Position numbers and translations under genes: made by a program
Notes under the pieces: generated by a model
Told to the model about the DNA's origin: nothing
Databases searched by the model: none
Seen by the model: the letters and a program-made list of their open reading frames with translations, nothing else
Shown here: positions 21,490 through 33,160 of the stretch, in pieces
How the letters are laid out: every line of letters starts with the position of its first letter
Numbering within the stretch: position 1 is the first letter of the stretch
DNA from: an uncultured Alphaproteobacteria bacterium
GTDB taxonomy: Bacteria > Pseudomonadota > Alphaproteobacteria > CAAHEQ01 > UBA3637
Assembly: GCA_944392785.1 (NCBI GenBank)
Contig: CALXXW010000025.1
Span: 1 to 43,263, forward strand
Length of the DNA stretch: 43,263 bases
Direction: 5' to 3'

Positions 21490-23094
21490 TTAAAATGAAA
21501 AGCCAGTTTTTAACCAAATTTCATTAATATTCTTAGTATCAGTATCAAAATATCTATTGAGATTTAATTCTAAAGAATATGGTTGATTTAATTGATAAAC
21601 GAAACTCGTAGCTATTTTTTTGCCATACCCTCTGTTATTTTCTTTTGTGTTTAGATAATTTTCAAAAGAGATTATGCTTTTGAATTTATCCTTTGGAGTA
21701 AAAATAGACCCGATTTCTGGATTTAAATAAAAATTATGTATATCATTGTATCTATATCCTAATTTGGGCAATATATAGGCTTGTATATTTTGTGTGATAG
21801 GAATCCCTATGCCCATACCAAATTCTATGGTTGGATGTAAGTTTGTTTTCTTTTCATCAAAATTATTCTCTAGTGATAACTTAAAGTGTTTTGATAAAAC
21901 AGAATCTACGGAAAAATCAATAATAGAGGTCATTTTTAAAACATCTATTTTATCCAATATTACTCGATTATTCTTTAGGTTATATTTTAATTCAAAAGAA
22001 AATAATTTTGTTTCTAAATCATCATAATACAAAGTATTGGGCTCAGATAAATCCAAATAAACGGGTCTAAAAGTTAATGTCAAATAGTTATCCCGATTAT
22101 GTTGAAAGCCTATTGATATTTTAGAAGATGGATTAGCTTTTGAAATGTTTTTAACAGAATTAAAATGTTCCATTTTTTTGAGATAATCAGAACTAGGTAA
22201 TAAATTAATATGTTCAACTTTATTATCCGAAATTACTTTGCCGACATATTCAAGTGGGGTTGTCCACAGTTTATCATCTTTACTTATGATGCCTGGCTTA
22301 GCAATTTGTAAAATTTTTATGGTAGCATTCCCACAATTATGAGAAATAAAATCGTAAGTGATTTGTTTATTTTTTAACTCCCACATGTGTTGCAATAATG
22401 TTTCCTTTTCGGATTCGGATAATTTTAATTCTATTTCCCATAAAGGTCGTTGCTCTTTTTCAGTATATTCTAATGCTTTTTGATTATACGGAGACAACAT
22501 ATAATATCCATCAATGATATTGAGCAGAATTTTTGAATAAGTAATTAAAGATGTTTGTTCTTCAAAAGTTGCTAAAAAACTGAAAGCATGTTCTCGTGTA
22601 ATACCGTCAACTGAACCAGATAATTTCAAAAATAAATGTCCCATCATAGATGACGGAGAAGTATTATTTTCTCCCGCAAAGACCATATAAATATTTTGAG
22701 CACTAACTTTCTTTCTAAACTCATTATACCCAACACAATTAGTTTTGTTTTTTCGCTGAGGTAAATTGAAATGTTTTTTTATGAAGTTAATACGTGCAGG
22801 AAAGCGACAGACAACATCTTCTTCGTTTATATAGGTGGGGTGAAGGTATTCTTGTATTAAAGCGCCTAATTCATTTTCTGGATTATTTTTGCCATCTGGA
22901 TTTAGGAAAAACGCATCATCAACAACGATGCTTTTTTTGCCGTAAAAATGCAAGAAATTGAGCCAGTCCGTTTCTTGAGATACAGAAAAAATATCTTCCG
23001 GATTTTGATAATCTTTAACGGATTGCGCAAAACTACCGGAAGATATAATAATTGATAAAAAGAGACAATACAGATATTTCACTATTTTTGACAC
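21490..23094 (-). CDS. DUF4105 (Lnb-like) protein with C-terminal outer-membrane region
   Basis: A 534-residue exported protein with a signal peptide (cleavage after SFA, about residue 23). Residues 80-275 match the DUF4105/Lnb N-terminal domain, a papain-like cysteine fold. They contain the CRFPAR motif (96-101), SPSSMMGH with His153, and YDFISHNCGNA with Cys254 as candidate nucleophile. From about residue 305 alternating hydrophobic strands ending in Phe suggest an outer-membrane beta-barrel. The Lnb family includes lipoprotein N-acylating proteins in Bacteroidetes, but many DUF4105 members are uncharacterised. The gene overlaps the upstream lipoprotein by 13 bp. Its base composition is strongly AT-rich, unlike its neighbours, which suggests transfer. 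Confidence 0.82.
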   Translation of the reverse strand: MSKIVKYLYCLFLSIIISSGSFAQSVKDYQNPEDIFSVSQETDWLNFLHFYGKKSIVVDDAFFLNPDGKNNPENELGALIQEYLHPTYINEEDVVCRFPARINFIKKHFNLPQRKNKTNCVGYNEFRKKVSAQNIYMVFAGENNTSPSSMMGHLFLKLSGSVDGITREHAFSFLATFEEQTSLITYSKILLNIIDGYYMLSPYNQKALEYTEKEQRPLWEIELKLSESEKETLLQHMWELKNKQITYDFISHNCGNATIKILQIAKPGIISKDDKLWTTPLEYVGKVISDNKVEHINLLPSSDYLKKMEHFNSVKNISKANPSSKISIGFQHNRDNYLTLTFRPVYLDLSEPNTLYYDDLETKLFSFELKYNLKNNRVILDKIDVLKMTSIIDFSVDSVLSKHFKLSLENNFDEKKTNLHPTIEFGMGIGIPITQNIQAYILPKLGYRYNDIHNFYLNPEIGSIFTPKDKFKSIISFENYLNTKENNRGYGKKIATSFVYQLNQPYSLELNLNRYFDTDTKNINEIWLKTGFSF

Positions 23095-23483
23095 GCTGAT
23101 TTTTTGTATACAGGGACAACAATGTTATCGTCATATGTCCACATAGCGCCTGTTAAAGCATCTGTAGACGAACCAAAAATCCCAATCCCTCCTGAAAAAA
23201 CATTTCCTAAGAACCAAGGTTCTATTTCACTTGATACAATTGATGTGCTAGAACGAAGGCATTGCGTTTCTTTTACTGTAATTGTAATATCTTGATTATC
23301 TTTCTTTAAAGATACAACACTGGGAACAACGATTGATTGCATTCCAGAGGCAGAAACTACATTAACTTCTACTTCTTCTCCTGTGCTTGTCATAATATTC
23401 ACATTCTTATTACGGCCCTTTACAATAGAAGCACAGCCGGAAAGCATAGAACAAACCAATAAAGCAACTAATATTTTTTTCAT
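23082..23483 (-). CDS. Small CASIVKG-type lipoprotein
   Basis: A 133-residue lipoprotein with lipobox LSGC and Cys17. The mature start CASIVKGR and the C-terminal GGIGIFGSSTDALTGAMW segment are typical of a widespread group of small envelope lipoproteins of unknown role. The central part looks like a beta-sandwich. It is cotranscribed with, and overlaps, the DUF4105 gene, so the two products probably work together at the outer membrane. An AT-rich leader with AAAAGGAT precedes the ATG. Confidence 0.78.
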   Translation of the reverse strand: MKKILVALLVCSMLSGCASIVKGRNKNVNIMTSTGEEVEVNVVSASGMQSIVVPSVVSLKKDNQDITITVKETQCLRSSTSIVSSEIEPWFLGNVFSGGIGIFGSSTDALTGAMWTYDDNIVVPVYKKSACQK

Positions 23484-23886: not shown

Positions 23887-25176
23887 CTAAGAAGAAATAC
23901 TTCTCTGTAGACGTATTAACAGATATTCGGCTAAAAGGCAGAGCGCAACGGCGCAACAACAGAAGGAGGTCCATCCGGCTTGAGGTGAGGGGATTGAAAG
24001 TCCTTTTTCAATAGTTGTGCACACGCTTAGTGTCAAACCGGCCGATAGCGAACCCAGAGTACCCGCCAATGATTTCATGGTTGAGTTCACGGATAAATAA
24101 ATAGCGCTCATCTGATCCGGAACAAAAAGCAGAGAGGTATTGTTAATTCCCAGCGTCAATCCGGCTGTTGCTATACCCAGCAGAGCATGCAGAACAAAGA
24201 GAGAACCATAAGTTGAATAATCGTTTAGACCTGAGGCCCTATTAAGCCAGATGAGACCTAACAACACGAAAATGAACAGAGGAATGGACAATAACAGTAT
24301 CAAAACACTTCCTTTTTTATCAGCCATTTTCCCCCACGTTTGAACGGTTATCATATACATAACCTGTGATATCAAGGTCAGGAGCAAAATGCCTGACATT
24401 TGGATATTCAATCTGTTCAACATAAAAACGGTGATGAAGGGAGTGATAAAGGCTTGTGAAAAAGTTAACAGGCTTAAAGAACTCAACAGATGCCGGAAGG
24501 GCTTATTTTTGAGTGTTTGCCTTAATTTTTGGAAAAAAGGTATATCTGATCGTATTGGTATGGAACAATCCCGGACATGAAGCAGGGTATAGGCTCCATA
24601 CAGGCCGATTATAAAAGCCAAAATCAATAAAACAGCGTAAGCGTAGATCTCTTGGTCGGGGTAGGTATTATGGATGTACTGTAGGAAGAAAGAGGCTCCT
24701 AAAAAACAAATGATTTTCGCCAGCATCATATACTTAAAGCGATGGGAAAAGAAGCGTCCCATTAATGCGTTGGGCACCAGAACTTTCATCCATGGCAACC
24801 AGGCACCGCCGGCGATGCATCCTATCAGATAAGTTGCGGATAGGAAAAAAATCAACAAGGTCAAAGCCCCCGGCATGCTCGGTCTAAAGGCAAGCAAGGC
24901 AGCCAGTAAGTAGAAGGGTCTGGAAAGAAAGGAGGCCCAGTAAGAAATACGGCGCACAGACCATCCCTTTTCAATCATCCAGGCCGCCAGTAGATGGATA
25001 AGATTGCCTAAATAGGGAATGGCTCCCAAAATACCAAAAGCCAAATTACCGGCTCCGAAAAAGGTCGCATAAGCCATCAAAGTGGGTCCCACAGCCAGCG
25101 TATCCATGGCCGAGGTAGCAACACCACCGCGGACCACATAAGAAAGAGATTTTTGAAGAGAAGGATGTTTTTGCAT
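23887..25176 (-). CDS. MFS-type transporter
   Basis: A 429-residue membrane protein with about twelve hydrophobic helices in two halves and a central charged loop (about 205-230). It carries MFS-like loop motifs (GKMADKKGS after helix 8, and GRFFSHRFK in the first half). The substrate cannot be read from the sequence. It is divergent from neuA across 251 bases, so a role with sialic acid or another glycan precursor is possible but speculative. The promoter lies so close that the ATG at 25176 would be at or near the first transcribed base, and no ribosome site is present. Confidence 0.82.
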   Translation of the reverse strand: MQKHPSLQKSLSYVVRGGVATSAMDTLAVGPTLMAYATFFGAGNLAFGILGAIPYLGNLIHLLAAWMIEKGWSVRRISYWASFLSRPFYLLAALLAFRPSMPGALTLLIFFLSATYLIGCIAGGAWLPWMKVLVPNALMGRFFSHRFKYMMLAKIICFLGASFFLQYIHNTYPDQEIYAYAVLLILAFIIGLYGAYTLLHVRDCSIPIRSDIPFFQKLRQTLKNKPFRHLLSSLSLLTFSQAFITPFITVFMLNRLNIQMSGILLLTLISQVMYMITVQTWGKMADKKGSVLILLLSIPLFIFVLLGLIWLNRASGLNDYSTYGSLFVLHALLGIATAGLTLGINNTSLLFVPDQMSAIYLSVNSTMKSLAGTLGSLSAGLTLSVCTTIEKGLSIPSPQAGWTSFCCCAVALCLLAEYLLIRLQRSISS

Positions 25177-25183
25177 ACCCTAT

Positions 25184-25212
25184 TATATAGAAAAAATAGA
25201 TGTACCTGTCAA
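25184..25212 (-). promoter_or_regulatory. Promoter of the MFS gene, giving a near-leaderless transcript
   Basis: On the minus strand TTGACA (25212-25207), a 17-base spacer and TATATA (25189-25184; an overlapping TATAAT at 25187-25182) lie directly before the ATG at 25176. Transcription would begin within about 0-3 bases of the start codon. Confidence 0.65.
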
Positions 25213-25261
25213 ATAAAATTGAGGATGAATAGGGCTGCTCGCGTAGAGAGAAAAAAAGATA

Positions 25262-25294
25262 ACATGACTTCTTGAGTCGGATGAAAGGTCATGT
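25262..25294 (+). promoter_or_regulatory. Hairpin upstream of neuA with a GAGTC site in its loop
   Basis: ACATGAC (25262-25268) pairs with GTCATGT (25288-25294) around a 19-base loop holding GAGTC, a GANTC methylation target. It lies upstream of the neuA promoter, between the two divergent genes. It could be an operator or only a chance palindrome. Confidence 0.35.
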
Positions 25295-25372
25295 CGTTTT
25301 TGAATGGATATCATTTTAAGAGTATATGTGGGGTAATATAGCAAGTAGCGGGTCCAGAAAGACGGTTCCCCC

Positions 25373-25401
25373 TTGACAGAAGAAGAAGGTTATTGTAGGA
25401 T
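25373..25401 (+). promoter_or_regulatory. Promoter of the neuA gene
   Basis: TTGACA (25373-25378), a 17-base spacer and TAGGAT (25396-25401) are followed by a leader of about 20 bases with a GGGG ribosome site before the ATG at 25428. Confidence 0.75.
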
Positions 25402-25427
25402 ATGTTCAATGTGATATGGGGTAAAAG

Positions 25428-26147
25428 ATGTATAGTGGTCAAAAAATTTTGGGACTTATCCCGGCGCGCGGAGGATCCGAAGCAATCCCCCGTAAAAATA
25501 TATATCCGATTAATGGTAAGCCGTTGCTAATGTACACGATTGAGGCAGCAAAAAAATCTCAATTTTTAGACGCCCTATATTGTTCTACAAATGATGATGA
25601 AATCGCTGAAGTAGTTTCTCGGAAGGCAGGAATATGCCAAATTATCAGACGGCCGGATGAATTGAGTACAAGCACGGCCAGAACGATAGAAAGTGTTATT
25701 CATGCCTTGGATTTTTTATCGTCTGAGGGAAAGAGCTTTGACTATGTTATGATTTTACAGCCGACAAGTCCCCTACGTCAATCAATGGAAATAGATGGAT
25801 GCATTCGTTTTGTCATTGATAAGAAATTGAGCAGTTGTGTAAGCGTTTCACAAATTCACTGTTTACCGACATTATTGCGCAACCGGGACAAAGAGAGTGG
25901 CCGTTTGTCTTCTATCGTCTCAGGAAATGGGACAGTTCGTCGCCAAGATGTGCAGCCAACGTATTATGTTGACGGATGTTTATATATGTGGTCGGTCGCT
26001 GAAATCAAGAAACACGGCTTGGATATCAGTTTGAATGATGCTGCGTTCGGATATGAAATAGACAAGGTATCCGGTTTTGATTTAAATTACCTTTCGGATA
26101 TTCCGGAACTGGAATATCTCTTGCGGCAAAGACAGCGGCTAAAATAA
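25428..26147 (+). CDS. neuA: CMP-sialic acid synthetase (acylneuraminate cytidylyltransferase)
   Basis: It activates a nonulosonic acid, most likely N-acetylneuraminate, with CTP to give the CMP-sugar donor. The 239-residue protein has the nucleotide-binding IPARGGSEAIPRKNI (about 11-25; the usual Lys-Gly after GGS is Glu-Ala), LQPTSPLR (about 110-117), YYVDGCLY and the metal-binding region EIDKVSGFDLN. CMP-legionaminate or CMP-pseudaminate synthetases share this fold, but the adjacent GT80-like sialyltransferase favours sialic acid. No neuB or neuC is in the window. The two genes are 54 bases apart and probably cotranscribed. Confidence 0.87.
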   Translation: MYSGQKILGLIPARGGSEAIPRKNIYPINGKPLLMYTIEAAKKSQFLDALYCSTNDDEIAEVVSRKAGICQIIRRPDELSTSTARTIESVIHALDFLSSEGKSFDYVMILQPTSPLRQSMEIDGCIRFVIDKKLSSCVSVSQIHCLPTLLRNRDKESGRLSSIVSGNGTVRRQDVQPTYYVDGCLYMWSVAEIKKHGLDISLNDAAFGYEIDKVSGFDLNYLSDIPELEYLLRQRQRLK

Positions 26148-26201
26148 AGAAAATAGCTTTTTTGATTGTTAAATGATGTGATATGTGTTATAGGACATAC
26201 C

Positions 26202-27275
26202 ATGAGAAAAATCATATATATTGATATGGCTTTGCTTTTTGTTTGGCTGATTTGTCTTTTTCGATTATATCAGGTGTTATCCGTGCCGCCGTTGATTGCG
26301 CATATTTATCTAGATCCGGCCTCAACACCGGCCTTGTTTCAAATGACGGATTTGGTGCAACAGCCGGCCGAGGCCCCTAAATATGTAGCATGGCGGCGAT
26401 ATACGCATGAATTGCCTCAACACTTGTTGACGCAATTAAATATTCAGCGTTCAACCATCTCTGGAAGCGTTTCTAACGCTACTTTTCGGGAAACCGTAAA
26501 ACAAGAAATAAAAGATTTTTACCGTCAATATCCTCACTATCAATTTGTCATACACGGGAATATGTTTCACCTTTGGTCGTTTGTCCCGGCATTGGCCGTT
26601 ATCCCGAAAAATCAGGTAAAATCACTGCATCTATATGAGGATTCTATTGGACGTATTCTTTGGAACGGGTGTTCAACACTGCGTATAGACTATGCGCAAA
26701 ACTGGCCAACGGTTTTTCGGGTGGCTTTTTTGGATGAGGTAAAAAAAAGTTGTCCCGAACAATCCGGTTTAACGTTTCAGGAAACAAATCTGTTTCAACT
26801 AAAGGATACTTTGTCGTCGGTTGAAAAAAAGCACGTGTATACTTTGGCCGGGTTTGATGAAAAAACGATTCGTCCTTTATTTGAAAACGGTGCCGTTGCC
26901 GTTTATTTGGATGATCAGGCGATCAATATGGATAAGCTCCTCGCATGGCTAACACAGGAAAGAAAGGCTAAACCAGAGTTAGAACAAGCAACGTGGCTTT
27001 ATAAAAATCATCCGCGCTTGGGTTGGCACGGACATGCTTGGGAAGCGTTGAAAAATAATCTTAAAAAAATAGAGGCTCTGCCCTTTAAAGTACCTTTTGA
27101 GATTTTAATTTTAGCCGATTTAATACCTCAATATGTGTTGGGATATGGCTCCTCATCGTTTTTTTCCGTGCCGACGGGACATGTTCTGGGGTATATCAAA
27201 CGTCCCTACGATCCCTATGTGCCCGTGCTGAAAAAATTGGGCATTTTGCAGGATAATCATGTTCTTACTTTTTGA
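26202..27275 (+). CDS. Membrane-anchored GT80-family sialyltransferase-like protein
   Basis: A 357-residue protein with an N-terminal membrane anchor (about 8-30), then YLDPASTPAL (36-45), which matches the start of Pasteurella multocida and Photobacterium GT80 sialyltransferases. Further matches in order are LYEDS with Asp147 (the general-base position), LAGFDE (215-220), KNHP with His270, PFE with Glu300, and GSSSFFSVP with Ser317-Ser318. These are the known catalytic and CMP-binding positions of the family with similar spacing. It would move sialic acid from CMP-Neu5Ac onto a galactose-type acceptor. neuA directly upstream supports this. The linkage (alpha-2,3 or alpha-2,6) cannot be told. 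The start at 26202 is the ATG before the anchor, with AGGA upstream. Confidence 0.85.
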   Translation: MRKIIYIDMALLFVWLICLFRLYQVLSVPPLIAHIYLDPASTPALFQMTDLVQQPAEAPKYVAWRRYTHELPQHLLTQLNIQRSTISGSVSNATFRETVKQEIKDFYRQYPHYQFVIHGNMFHLWSFVPALAVIPKNQVKSLHLYEDSIGRILWNGCSTLRIDYAQNWPTVFRVAFLDEVKKSCPEQSGLTFQETNLFQLKDTLSSVEKKHVYTLAGFDEKTIRPLFENGAVAVYLDDQAINMDKLLAWLTQERKAKPELEQATWLYKNHPRLGWHGHAWEALKNNLKKIEALPFKVPFEILILADLIPQYVLGYGSSSFFSVPTGHVLGYIKRPYDPYVPVLKKLGILQDNHVLTF

Positions 27276-29834: not shown

Positions 29835-31382
29835 ATGACCAGAAAAAAAGTTGATACCGCTTTAATTTCAGCACTGCTTTCCAATGTGTTTGAAGGACTG
29901 CAAGCTCCGGTGATCATTAACATCGGTTTTATTGGCATGAAACAAATGCTGGAAAAAAAGTTAACACCGGTCGGTATAGCCAATGAATTGCGTCAAAACG
30001 GTATAGATGCTGTTCCTTTCTTTGTGCCGGAGGCAAAAGATCCCTCAAAAACCGTTGTCTCTTGTACGGGGGTTCAGACACCGTTTGTCTGTGCGGCTGA
30101 GGCGCGACAAACCGCTGCTCGTTTTTTGACGATATTGGAAAGGATGGGCGTTTCTTGCAATATGCCTTTTCCGGTGATGGCAGCTCAATTATATTTGCCG
30201 GGGAAAAGTGGTGTATTGAAGACGGATAGGTTTCGAAAGTTGACAACGACGCTTTTGAAGGAAGCTTACCAAAAATCCGCTGACAACAATGTTAACGAGT
30301 TGAATACGTTGCAGGAATTGACGGGGCATTCATGTGTTTTTCGTGGCGCTTCTTTGGGAGGAAATCCCTATGGTGTTGTGGCCGCGCGTGAAAATAAAGC
30401 CGTTGCATATGCGGCACCTAATGTGTTGAATGCCGTGTCTTTTTGCACGGGGGCTTTGATGAAAACATCATTTTTTTGTGACAATTTGCAGTCTAGGTAT
30501 GGTTTTTTATATGAATATGCTGCTGCTGCGGATCAGAAACATTATGATGATTGGGAGTTGGAGGAAATGGCCTCTTTAAGATTACATAAAAATCCCAAGG
30601 AGCCGCTTGTCTGTGAAATACCTTATGAAACACCGATTTTCCCTCATCGTAATCCGTTGAAGAACATCTATATAGCGTTGAGTGATTCTCGCGTCTACCG
30701 TATTCCACGAGAGGATCCCAGATGGCAGGAATTTTTGCAAGGGCATAAAGTTCGAGATACGACGATTTTTGGATTCTTGGCTGAGCGACGTGTGGCTCAT
30801 CTTAAAGAGCTTATTCAACAGAAACGAAGATATCCGCGGGTGTATCATTTGTTAAATACAACCAGTCTGACACCTTTACCATTCCATGATCAAAGCCATC
30901 GCGATAGTTTGGAATTTTTCCGTGGCGTATATGGGTTTGATGCGTTGGTATGTGATGAGGGAGGGCAGTTGTATTGGACATATAAAAAGCCGGGATCTTT
31001 GGCTCAACCCTTGATGTGGGATGGGGAGGATTTAAAACTGGCCGGTATCCAAAAATTTCCGAAAGGTTCTTGTGTCATTGACTATGATCGTTTTCAGAGG
31101 CCCCTGGATGCTCAAGAACAATCGAGAAACGATGATAATGTGTCGGAAACTTGGAGCGAGATACAGCGTTGGAAAAATGAACTTCAAACGGCTGTTTCTG
31201 AACTGGATACATCGTTGAAAAAAATCCTGGACACCAGCTTGATTTCGGAAGATATTTTTGCTATAAAGGGAGGAGAGTTGATCGGTGGAACAGAAGCTAT
31301 GCTGCCCTTGGATATCTTAAAGAAAAAAATAATCGGCAAAAAGACTGTCAGACCGCTTCAGACACAACATACCAGAGTATAA
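29835..31382 (+). CDS. Unrecognised 515-residue protein in the glycan locus
   Basis: I do not recognise this protein. It has no signal peptide or transmembrane helix. Residues 1-150 look like an alpha/beta domain with hydrophobic strands (PVIINIGFIGM, GIDAVPFFVP) and several cysteines. The middle (about 260-400) contains segments such as IYIALSDSRVYRIPRED and VRDTTIFGFLAERRVAHLKEL. The C-terminal 80 residues include a likely coiled coil (about 440-480, SEIQRWKNELQTAVSELD). It sits between GT2 and GT4 glycosyltransferases and runs into the GT4 gene with 27 bases between. It may be a glycan-locus enzyme or an unrelated cytoplasmic or secreted protein. The start has no ribosome site. Confidence 0.75.
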   Translation: MTRKKVDTALISALLSNVFEGLQAPVIINIGFIGMKQMLEKKLTPVGIANELRQNGIDAVPFFVPEAKDPSKTVVSCTGVQTPFVCAAEARQTAARFLTILERMGVSCNMPFPVMAAQLYLPGKSGVLKTDRFRKLTTTLLKEAYQKSADNNVNELNTLQELTGHSCVFRGASLGGNPYGVVAARENKAVAYAAPNVLNAVSFCTGALMKTSFFCDNLQSRYGFLYEYAAAADQKHYDDWELEEMASLRLHKNPKEPLVCEIPYETPIFPHRNPLKNIYIALSDSRVYRIPREDPRWQEFLQGHKVRDTTIFGFLAERRVAHLKELIQQKRRYPRVYHLLNTTSLTPLPFHDQSHRDSLEFFRGVYGFDALVCDEGGQLYWTYKKPGSLAQPLMWDGEDLKLAGIQKFPKGSCVIDYDRFQRPLDAQEQSRNDDNVSETWSEIQRWKNELQTAVSELDTSLKKILDTSLISEDIFAIKGGELIGGTEAMLPLDILKKKIIGKKTVRPLQTQHTRV

Positions 31383-32548: not shown

Positions 32549-33160
32549 TCAAAAAATACCGATACCCAGCTCATGTTCACGAATATAGCGATAAAGGGTC
32601 ATCCGGTGTACATCCATTCTGTTGGCGATTTTTGAGATAGAAAATCCTCGATCGAGAAGAAGTTGGATTTCTTGACAGTGCAGATCTAATTTGCGTTGCT
32701 GATTTTTTTTCCCTCTTGGTCGACCCAGATGGCATCCATCGGCTTTCAATCGTTCTAAAGCTTCTCGTGTCCGCTGAGAAATTAAATTGCGCTCAATTTC
32801 TGCCGATAAACCAAAAGCAAAAGCCAAAACTTTGGATTGAATATCGGCACCCAGACGATAGTTGTCCTTAATTGTCCATACCTGGATTCCTTTATTCATA
32901 CAAAGATGCAGAAAGCTCATGACCTGCAGTAAATTCCGACCAAAACGAGAAATTTCGGTTGCAATCAGAATATCTCCTTGTTTCAGTTGAGAAAGCGCAT
33001 TCCCTAGTTTGCGTTTGTTGATACCGGTGGTTCCGCTGATCGTTTCTTCAATCCATTGGCTGATATCCAGTTGTTCCTGTTGGCAGAATTTTTTTATCTC
33101 AAATGATTGATTTTTAAGTGTTTGTTTGTCCGTGCTGACACGGATATATCCATAAATCAT
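32549..33160 (-). CDS. Mpi-like serine recombinase (DNA invertase family)
   Basis: A 203-residue small serine recombinase. The catalytic Ser9 is in YIRVSTD, with the arginine block EISRFGRNL (about 68-77) and KVLAFAFGLSAEIERNLISQRTREAL (about 110-137) forming the long E helix. A C-terminal helix-turn-helix (about 175-200, ISKIANRMDVHRMTLYRYI) completes it. The wording of the catalytic domain is strikingly close to Mpi, the master invertase of Bacteroides that flips capsule promoters. It is therefore a candidate phase-variation switch for the neighbouring glycan genes and a candidate for horizontal transfer. A strong AAAGGAGAA site precedes the ATG. Confidence 0.88.
   Translation of the reverse strand: MIYGYIRVSTDKQTLKNQSFEIKKFCQQEQLDISQWIEETISGTTGINKRKLGNALSQLKQGDILIATEISRFGRNLLQVMSFLHLCMNKGIQVWTIKDNYRLGADIQSKVLAFAFGLSAEIERNLISQRTREALERLKADGCHLGRPRGKKNQQRKLDLHCQEIQLLLDRGFSISKIANRMDVHRMTLYRYIREHELGIGIF

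Follow-up and report, generated by a model that had tools for sequence, protein, structure and literature searches.

Bacterial sialyltransferases of family GT80 are widely used tools, and structures have been solved for enzymes from Pasteurella and Photobacterium. To our knowledge, it is unclear how those GT80 forms that bear a signal sequence reach their cytoplasmic donor. In the Golgi, the sialyltransferases are fed across the membrane by the CMP (cytidine monophosphate)-sialic acid transporter SLC35A1, and SLC35 is a transporter family other than the major facilitator superfamily (MFS). Among bacterial MFS proteins, NanT is able to import sialic acid (PMC9631793). Here we describe a predicted GT80 gene, together with a neuA-type gene and a divergent MFS gene, in a stretch of 43,263 nucleotides (the window; contig CALXXW010000025.1 of assembly GCA_944392785.1) from an uncultured alphaproteobacterium, whose genome comprises 1.12 Mb and is 98% complete. 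The genes concerned are the following:

23887-25176, minus strand: MFS carrier with 12 transmembrane (TM) helices, partner of the GT80 and neuA genes (MFS_1 match, adjacency in related loci, structure model)
25177-25427, no strand: spacer separating the divergent MFS and neuA genes, with a promoter-like site on the plus strand at 25373-25401
25428-26147, plus strand: predicted CMP-nonulosonate (NeuA-type) cytidylyltransferase, 239 residues (Pfam, NCBIfam, solved relatives)
26202-27275, plus strand: predicted GT80 sialyltransferase, 357 residues, with a TM anchor at about residues 4-22 and the catalytic domain from about residue 30 (profile, alignment, model)

The sialyltransferase and its CMP-nonulosonate synthetase

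The preliminary description of this DNA had assigned the protein encoded at 26202-27275 (start codon ATG at 26202, preceded by AGGA) to GT80 from its motifs, and profile and structure comparisons agree with this assignment. PF11477 matched with 51.4 bits (E 1e-13), twice the gathering score of 25, a phmmer search linked the protein to PM0188/PmST1 of Pasteurella multocida (5.5e-11), and a profile of 17 relatives matched the solved GT80 enzymes over their entire length (about 1e-44). In the AlphaFold2 model, built from 11 natural sequences (predicted local distance difference test, pLDDT, 91.8), the fold is GT-B, and the closest solved folds found by VIA-align were all GT80 sialyltransferases (Z 25.0-27.9; root-mean-square deviation 3.1-3.5, one entry 5.8, over 305-326 residues), the next family being the plant UGTs (Z 15.6). 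All 17 aligned sequences share the residues D147, K268, H270, P271, E300, S317 and S318, and the catalytic Asp, the KxHP His, the PFE Glu and the SS pair occur in order and align with the motifs of the solved enzymes. In the profile alignment D147 falls on the second Asp of their LYDDG motif; we take this Asp (D141 in PmST1) to be the catalytic base, and homology with the solved enzymes implies that D147, H270, E300 and S317-S318 would meet at one site. The Pro of the YLDPAS position is common to the alpha-2,3-type PmST1 (P34), and since this position varies in other relatives, the shared Pro may be a weak hint at linkage type. We regard the protein as almost certainly a GT80 sialyltransferase, the activity being predicted. 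It has the same fold and the same catalytic Asp, KxHP, PFE and SS motifs as PmST1/PM0188, PdST and the Photobacterium enzymes, but is 18-26% identical to the known members, carries an N-terminal TM helix and has an MFS partner in its gut alphaproteobacterial setting, with one relative fused to NeuC.

The gene directly upstream had been described as a CMP-sialic acid synthetase. Its product matched CTP_transf_3 (5e-18), and its best solved relative was the CMP-Neu5Ac (N-acetylneuraminic acid) synthetase 6ifd (2.6e-32), whereas KdsB entries scored 3e-6 or weaker and a separate KdsB-like gene is present in the same genome (contig C9). The protein belongs to the same family as 6ifd and the Neisseria enzyme 1eyr, although the best NCBIfam model, PseF, gave 107.5 bits, under its cut-off of 205.7. 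The enzyme is nearer to NeuA than to KdsB, and a donor of the CMP-sialic acid type is very probable. The good promoter that had been noted before this gene corresponds to a site, TTGACA-17-TAGGAT at 25373-25401, matching at 10 of 12 positions; ten such sites were counted against 8.6 in shuffled sequences, which is not above chance, and the promoter evidence is therefore weak.

Distribution in the family and the MFS partner

The alphaproteobacterial setting proved not to be confined to the window. Among 385 genomes sampled across the class, the PF11477 cut-off was passed by two, the window's own and one of the same family; within that family, GT80 genes were found in 17 of 43 genomes (16 clear cases and, in G017, a fragment at a contig edge), frequently in several copies. 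GT80 is unusual in the class, but it characterizes a clade and is no oddity of a single genome. In the same 43 genomes, NeuA-type genes are present in 18, 16 of them shared with the GT80 set. A contig search with the single GT80 protein returned no match, and one with the MFS alignment returned 19 loci, all alphaproteobacterial. The named relatives are all alphaproteobacterial metagenome-assembled genomes, several titled after roe deer, sheep, yak, water buffalo or rabbit (Lapin). In the open-licence literature no paper was found joining GT80, sialyltransferase and Alphaproteobacteria, nor one joining sialic acid, neuA, rumen and Alphaproteobacteria.

When all neighbours in the window were compared by BLAST with the related GT80 loci, the divergent MFS gene was conserved, while LptF, GT4 and the other flanks were not. 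The lipopolysaccharide exporter that the preliminary description had offered as context did not hold up: LptF adjoins GT80 in the window alone, and no other GT80 locus that was retrieved shows this arrangement, so this context was rejected and the neighbour is incidental. That description, borne out in part, had overlooked the MFS partner, the spread of GT80 in the family and the neuB and neuC genes of relatives. In related loci the MFS gene usually touches GT80 or neuA, and it abuts or overlaps GT80 in four (L058, L063, L065 and L066). A close form of the carrier (over 590 bits) is present in 12 of the 43 family genomes, all 12 of them GT80 carriers (Fisher test, p 4e-7; further associations with GT80, p 9e-9 and 6e-4). 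NeuB was detected in seven, all with GT80, which in G017 is the contig-edge fragment. Sequence comparison establishes a conserved three-gene association of MFS, NeuA-type and GT80 genes; what is new here is the clade, the MFS partnership and a NeuC-GT80 fusion described below, the enzyme itself belonging to the known GT80 family.

Several loci vary around this theme. Some cassettes contain a GT52-type transferase gene or have one close by (L055, L076), and in L061 (genome G004) a broken GT52-like gene lies 2.3 kb from the MFS gene. In L066 (2822-4037) the GT80 gene is split over two frames, by decay or sequencing error, in a cassette that keeps MFS and NeuA. In two genomes, G006 and G015, a more complete nonulosonate operon, with a NeuD-like acetyltransferase, NeuB and NeuC, lies separately from the GT80 cassettes (L052, L053).

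Topology of the GT80 domain and supply of the donor

The membrane anchor proposed earlier is predicted here as well, and one N-terminal hydrophobic helix was found in 17 of 17 GT80 proteins. Net charge is higher on the N-terminal than on the C-terminal flank of this helix in 15, with two ties, and several proteins carry a site resembling that of signal peptidase, for example SFA|Q. In L063 the genes for NeuB, a 742-residue NeuC-TM-GT80 protein and the MFS carrier follow one another and overlap. The NeuC part of the fusion scored 314.7 bits against TIGR03568 (cut-off 235.9) and covers the full length of a stand-alone NeuC in alignment; behind it come the residues KKPRINRIFR, a single TM helix and the GT80 domain. 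This fusion ties the GT80 proteins of the clade directly to the sialic acid pathway. NeuC needs cytoplasmic UDP-GlcNAc (uridine diphosphate N-acetylglucosamine); with NeuC in the cytosol and a single helix in the fusion, the GT80 domain would therefore lie outside the inner membrane. From these features, the catalytic domain is likely to be periplasmic, across the membrane from NeuA.

One N-terminal TM helix with the N-terminus inside, as in the GT80 proteins, was also observed in GT8 and GT2 glycosyltransferases of L075 (7641-8681, on contig C9 of the window's own genome), L062, L064, L065 and L040, and a whole group of glycosyltransferases in this bacterial family may be extracytoplasmic.

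The absence of neuB noted for the window extends to its whole genome, where no NeuB was found, and the sialic acid itself must therefore come from outside, as far as gene content indicates. The uptake genes sought in the same genome did not provide a candidate: no TRAP (tripartite ATP-independent periplasmic) binding protein (DctP) was matched, so TRAP-type uptake was rejected, and the one SSF carrier (G000, contig C9) was rejected as SiaT, being much nearer to the choline transporter family (88 bits) than to the sialic acid symporter 5nv9 (24 bits). MFS-type matches in the genome number only six.

Given a periplasmic GT80 and a cytoplasmic NeuA, CMP-sialic acid would need a way across the inner membrane. 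The MFS carrier is the sole carrier travelling with GT80, and it is present in 6 of 7 NeuB-positive and 6 of 10 NeuB-negative GT80 genomes, a distribution not expected of an importer that serves scavenging alone; for these reasons we prefer an exchange of CMP-sialic acid for CMP. In this scheme NeuA would activate sialic acid (Neu5Ac or a closely related sugar), entering from outside in the NeuB-less genome of the window, to the CMP form in the cytoplasm, the MFS protein would export CMP-sialic acid, probably against leftover CMP, as Golgi carriers do when feeding Golgi sialyltransferases, and GT80, held by its helix with the catalytic domain in the periplasm, would cap a surface glycan. That the MFS protein carries the activated donor, as genomic partnership and GT80 topology suggest, has in our estimate just short of an even chance; the entire chain, a sialylation cassette of MFS carrier, NeuA and periplasmic GT80, is a tentative proposal. 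The fully Golgi-like version, with a new MFS subfamily carrying CMP-sialic acid out for CMP, is rather unlikely to hold in every part, and the likeness to SLC35A1 would be a functional analogy only.

The strongest competitor, doubtful but a serious possibility, is a scavenging cassette in which the MFS protein would take up free sialic acid from the mucus of the gut, NeuA would activate it and GT80 would transfer it at either face of the membrane. It explains the NeuB-less genomes most simply, it has a precedent in NanT as an MFS importer (PMC9631793), and it suits the window's genome, with neither NeuB nor a TRAP binding protein, a choline-like SSF carrier and few MFS proteins. However, the MFS gene shares an operon with NeuB and NeuC-GT80 in L063 and occurs in GT80 genomes with NeuB no less often than in those without it, and a periplasmic GT80 would be left without a donor. 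Like NanT, the window's carrier belongs to the MFS and has a link to sialic acid genes, but those genes serve transfer, the same type of carrier is found beside NeuB, and it gave no match to NCBIfam models up to E 0.1, a library whose content was not checked for a NanT model.

Less probable, and in our view unlikely, is classical sialylation of lipooligosaccharide on the cytoplasmic face, in which the helix would serve only as a tether of GT80 to the inner leaflet, synthesis and use of the donor would both be cytoplasmic, and the MFS protein would have an accessory role. GT52-type proteins without a TM helix do occur in the same cassettes, but the charge bias, the signal-peptide-like N-termini and the NeuC-TM-GT80 fusion speak for the other side of the membrane.

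It is quite improbable that GT80 transfers another 2-keto sugar, such as Kdo (3-deoxy-D-manno-octulosonic acid) from CMP-Kdo, or legionaminic or pseudaminic acid, in place of Neu5Ac. A KdsB-like gene is general in the family genomes (weaker hits in nearly all 43), G004 has GT80 without a NeuA-type gene, the NeuA-type protein by itself does not name the nonulosonate, as its score below the PseF cut-off illustrates, and a title cited in PMC11078009 indicates that a GT52 enzyme can transfer Kdo. Against this, GT80 co-occurs tightly with NeuA-type genes (16 of 17) and is fused to a NeuC that exceeds its cut-off. Finally, some MFS proteins, such as LtaA, flip lipids, and the lipid carriers SPNS2 and MFSD2A were among the structural matches of the MFS protein, yet a role in flipping a lipid-linked acceptor to the periplasm for capping by GT80 is very unlikely, because all MFS folds score alike and the donor problem would remain.

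Returning to the outward transport of CMP-sialic acid by the MFS protein, several observations weigh against it. The scheme is a computational one, and topology was assigned from hydropathy and charge alone; the location of the gonococcal sialyltransferase Lst was revised from the surface to the cytoplasmic face (PMC11078009), which is a reason for caution. The Fisher tests ignore kinship, though presence is patchy in two genera (MFS and GT80 together in 2 of 4 genomes of g3 and 2 of 11 of g4). A distant form of the carrier occurs in six further family genomes, four with GT80 and two (G001, G032) without it, and five GT80 genomes lack the close form, namely four from rabbit gut, which have the distant one, and G017, which has only the GT80 fragment. 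G004 (L061) has GT80 and MFS genes but no NeuA-type gene, and the NeuB-less genome of the window would need another importer of free sialic acid, none having been found among the TRAP and SSF candidates. The carrier itself (MFS_1, 33.3 bits) gave an AlphaFold2 model with an MFS fold (pLDDT 90.1), to which sugar efflux, nucleoside, sugar-phosphate and other carriers scored alike; a substrate assignment from the fold was rejected as uninformative.

Other features of the window and implications

Three further features of the window were recorded:

21490-23483, minus strand: Lnb_N/DUF7843/DUF7840 periplasmic protein and a small lipoprotein-like gene, about 31% G+C against about 44% around them
29835-31382, plus strand: open reading frame of 515 residues with no significant Pfam or NCBIfam match
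32549-33160, minus strand: Master DNA invertase Mpi-family recombinase (NF009949, 301.7 bits; cut-off 272)

The genes at 21490-23483 were probably acquired. Recombinases of the Mpi type switch capsule promoters in Bacteroides, and homologues of the window's recombinase are placed at a distance of about 1 kb from GT80 (L046) or overlap the GT80 end (L048), positions that hint at phase-variable glycans. No convincing inverted repeats and no repeats of an invertible promoter were found near the cassette, and promoter inversion by the recombinase was rejected, the sole exact 11-nucleotide pair (33169/33273) lying upstream of the recombinase gene.

A clade in which an MFS carrier travels with GT80 and neuA, and which includes a natural NeuC-TM-GT80 fusion, makes the question of donor access directly testable. 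If the proposed export were true, we would know of no earlier bacterial nucleotide-sugar exporter devoted to sialylation. A cell surface bearing host-like sialic acid, as had been suggested before, is plausible, and if these bacteria do display the sugar, this would bear on immune evasion by poorly known inhabitants of the gut of ruminants, rabbits and other hosts.
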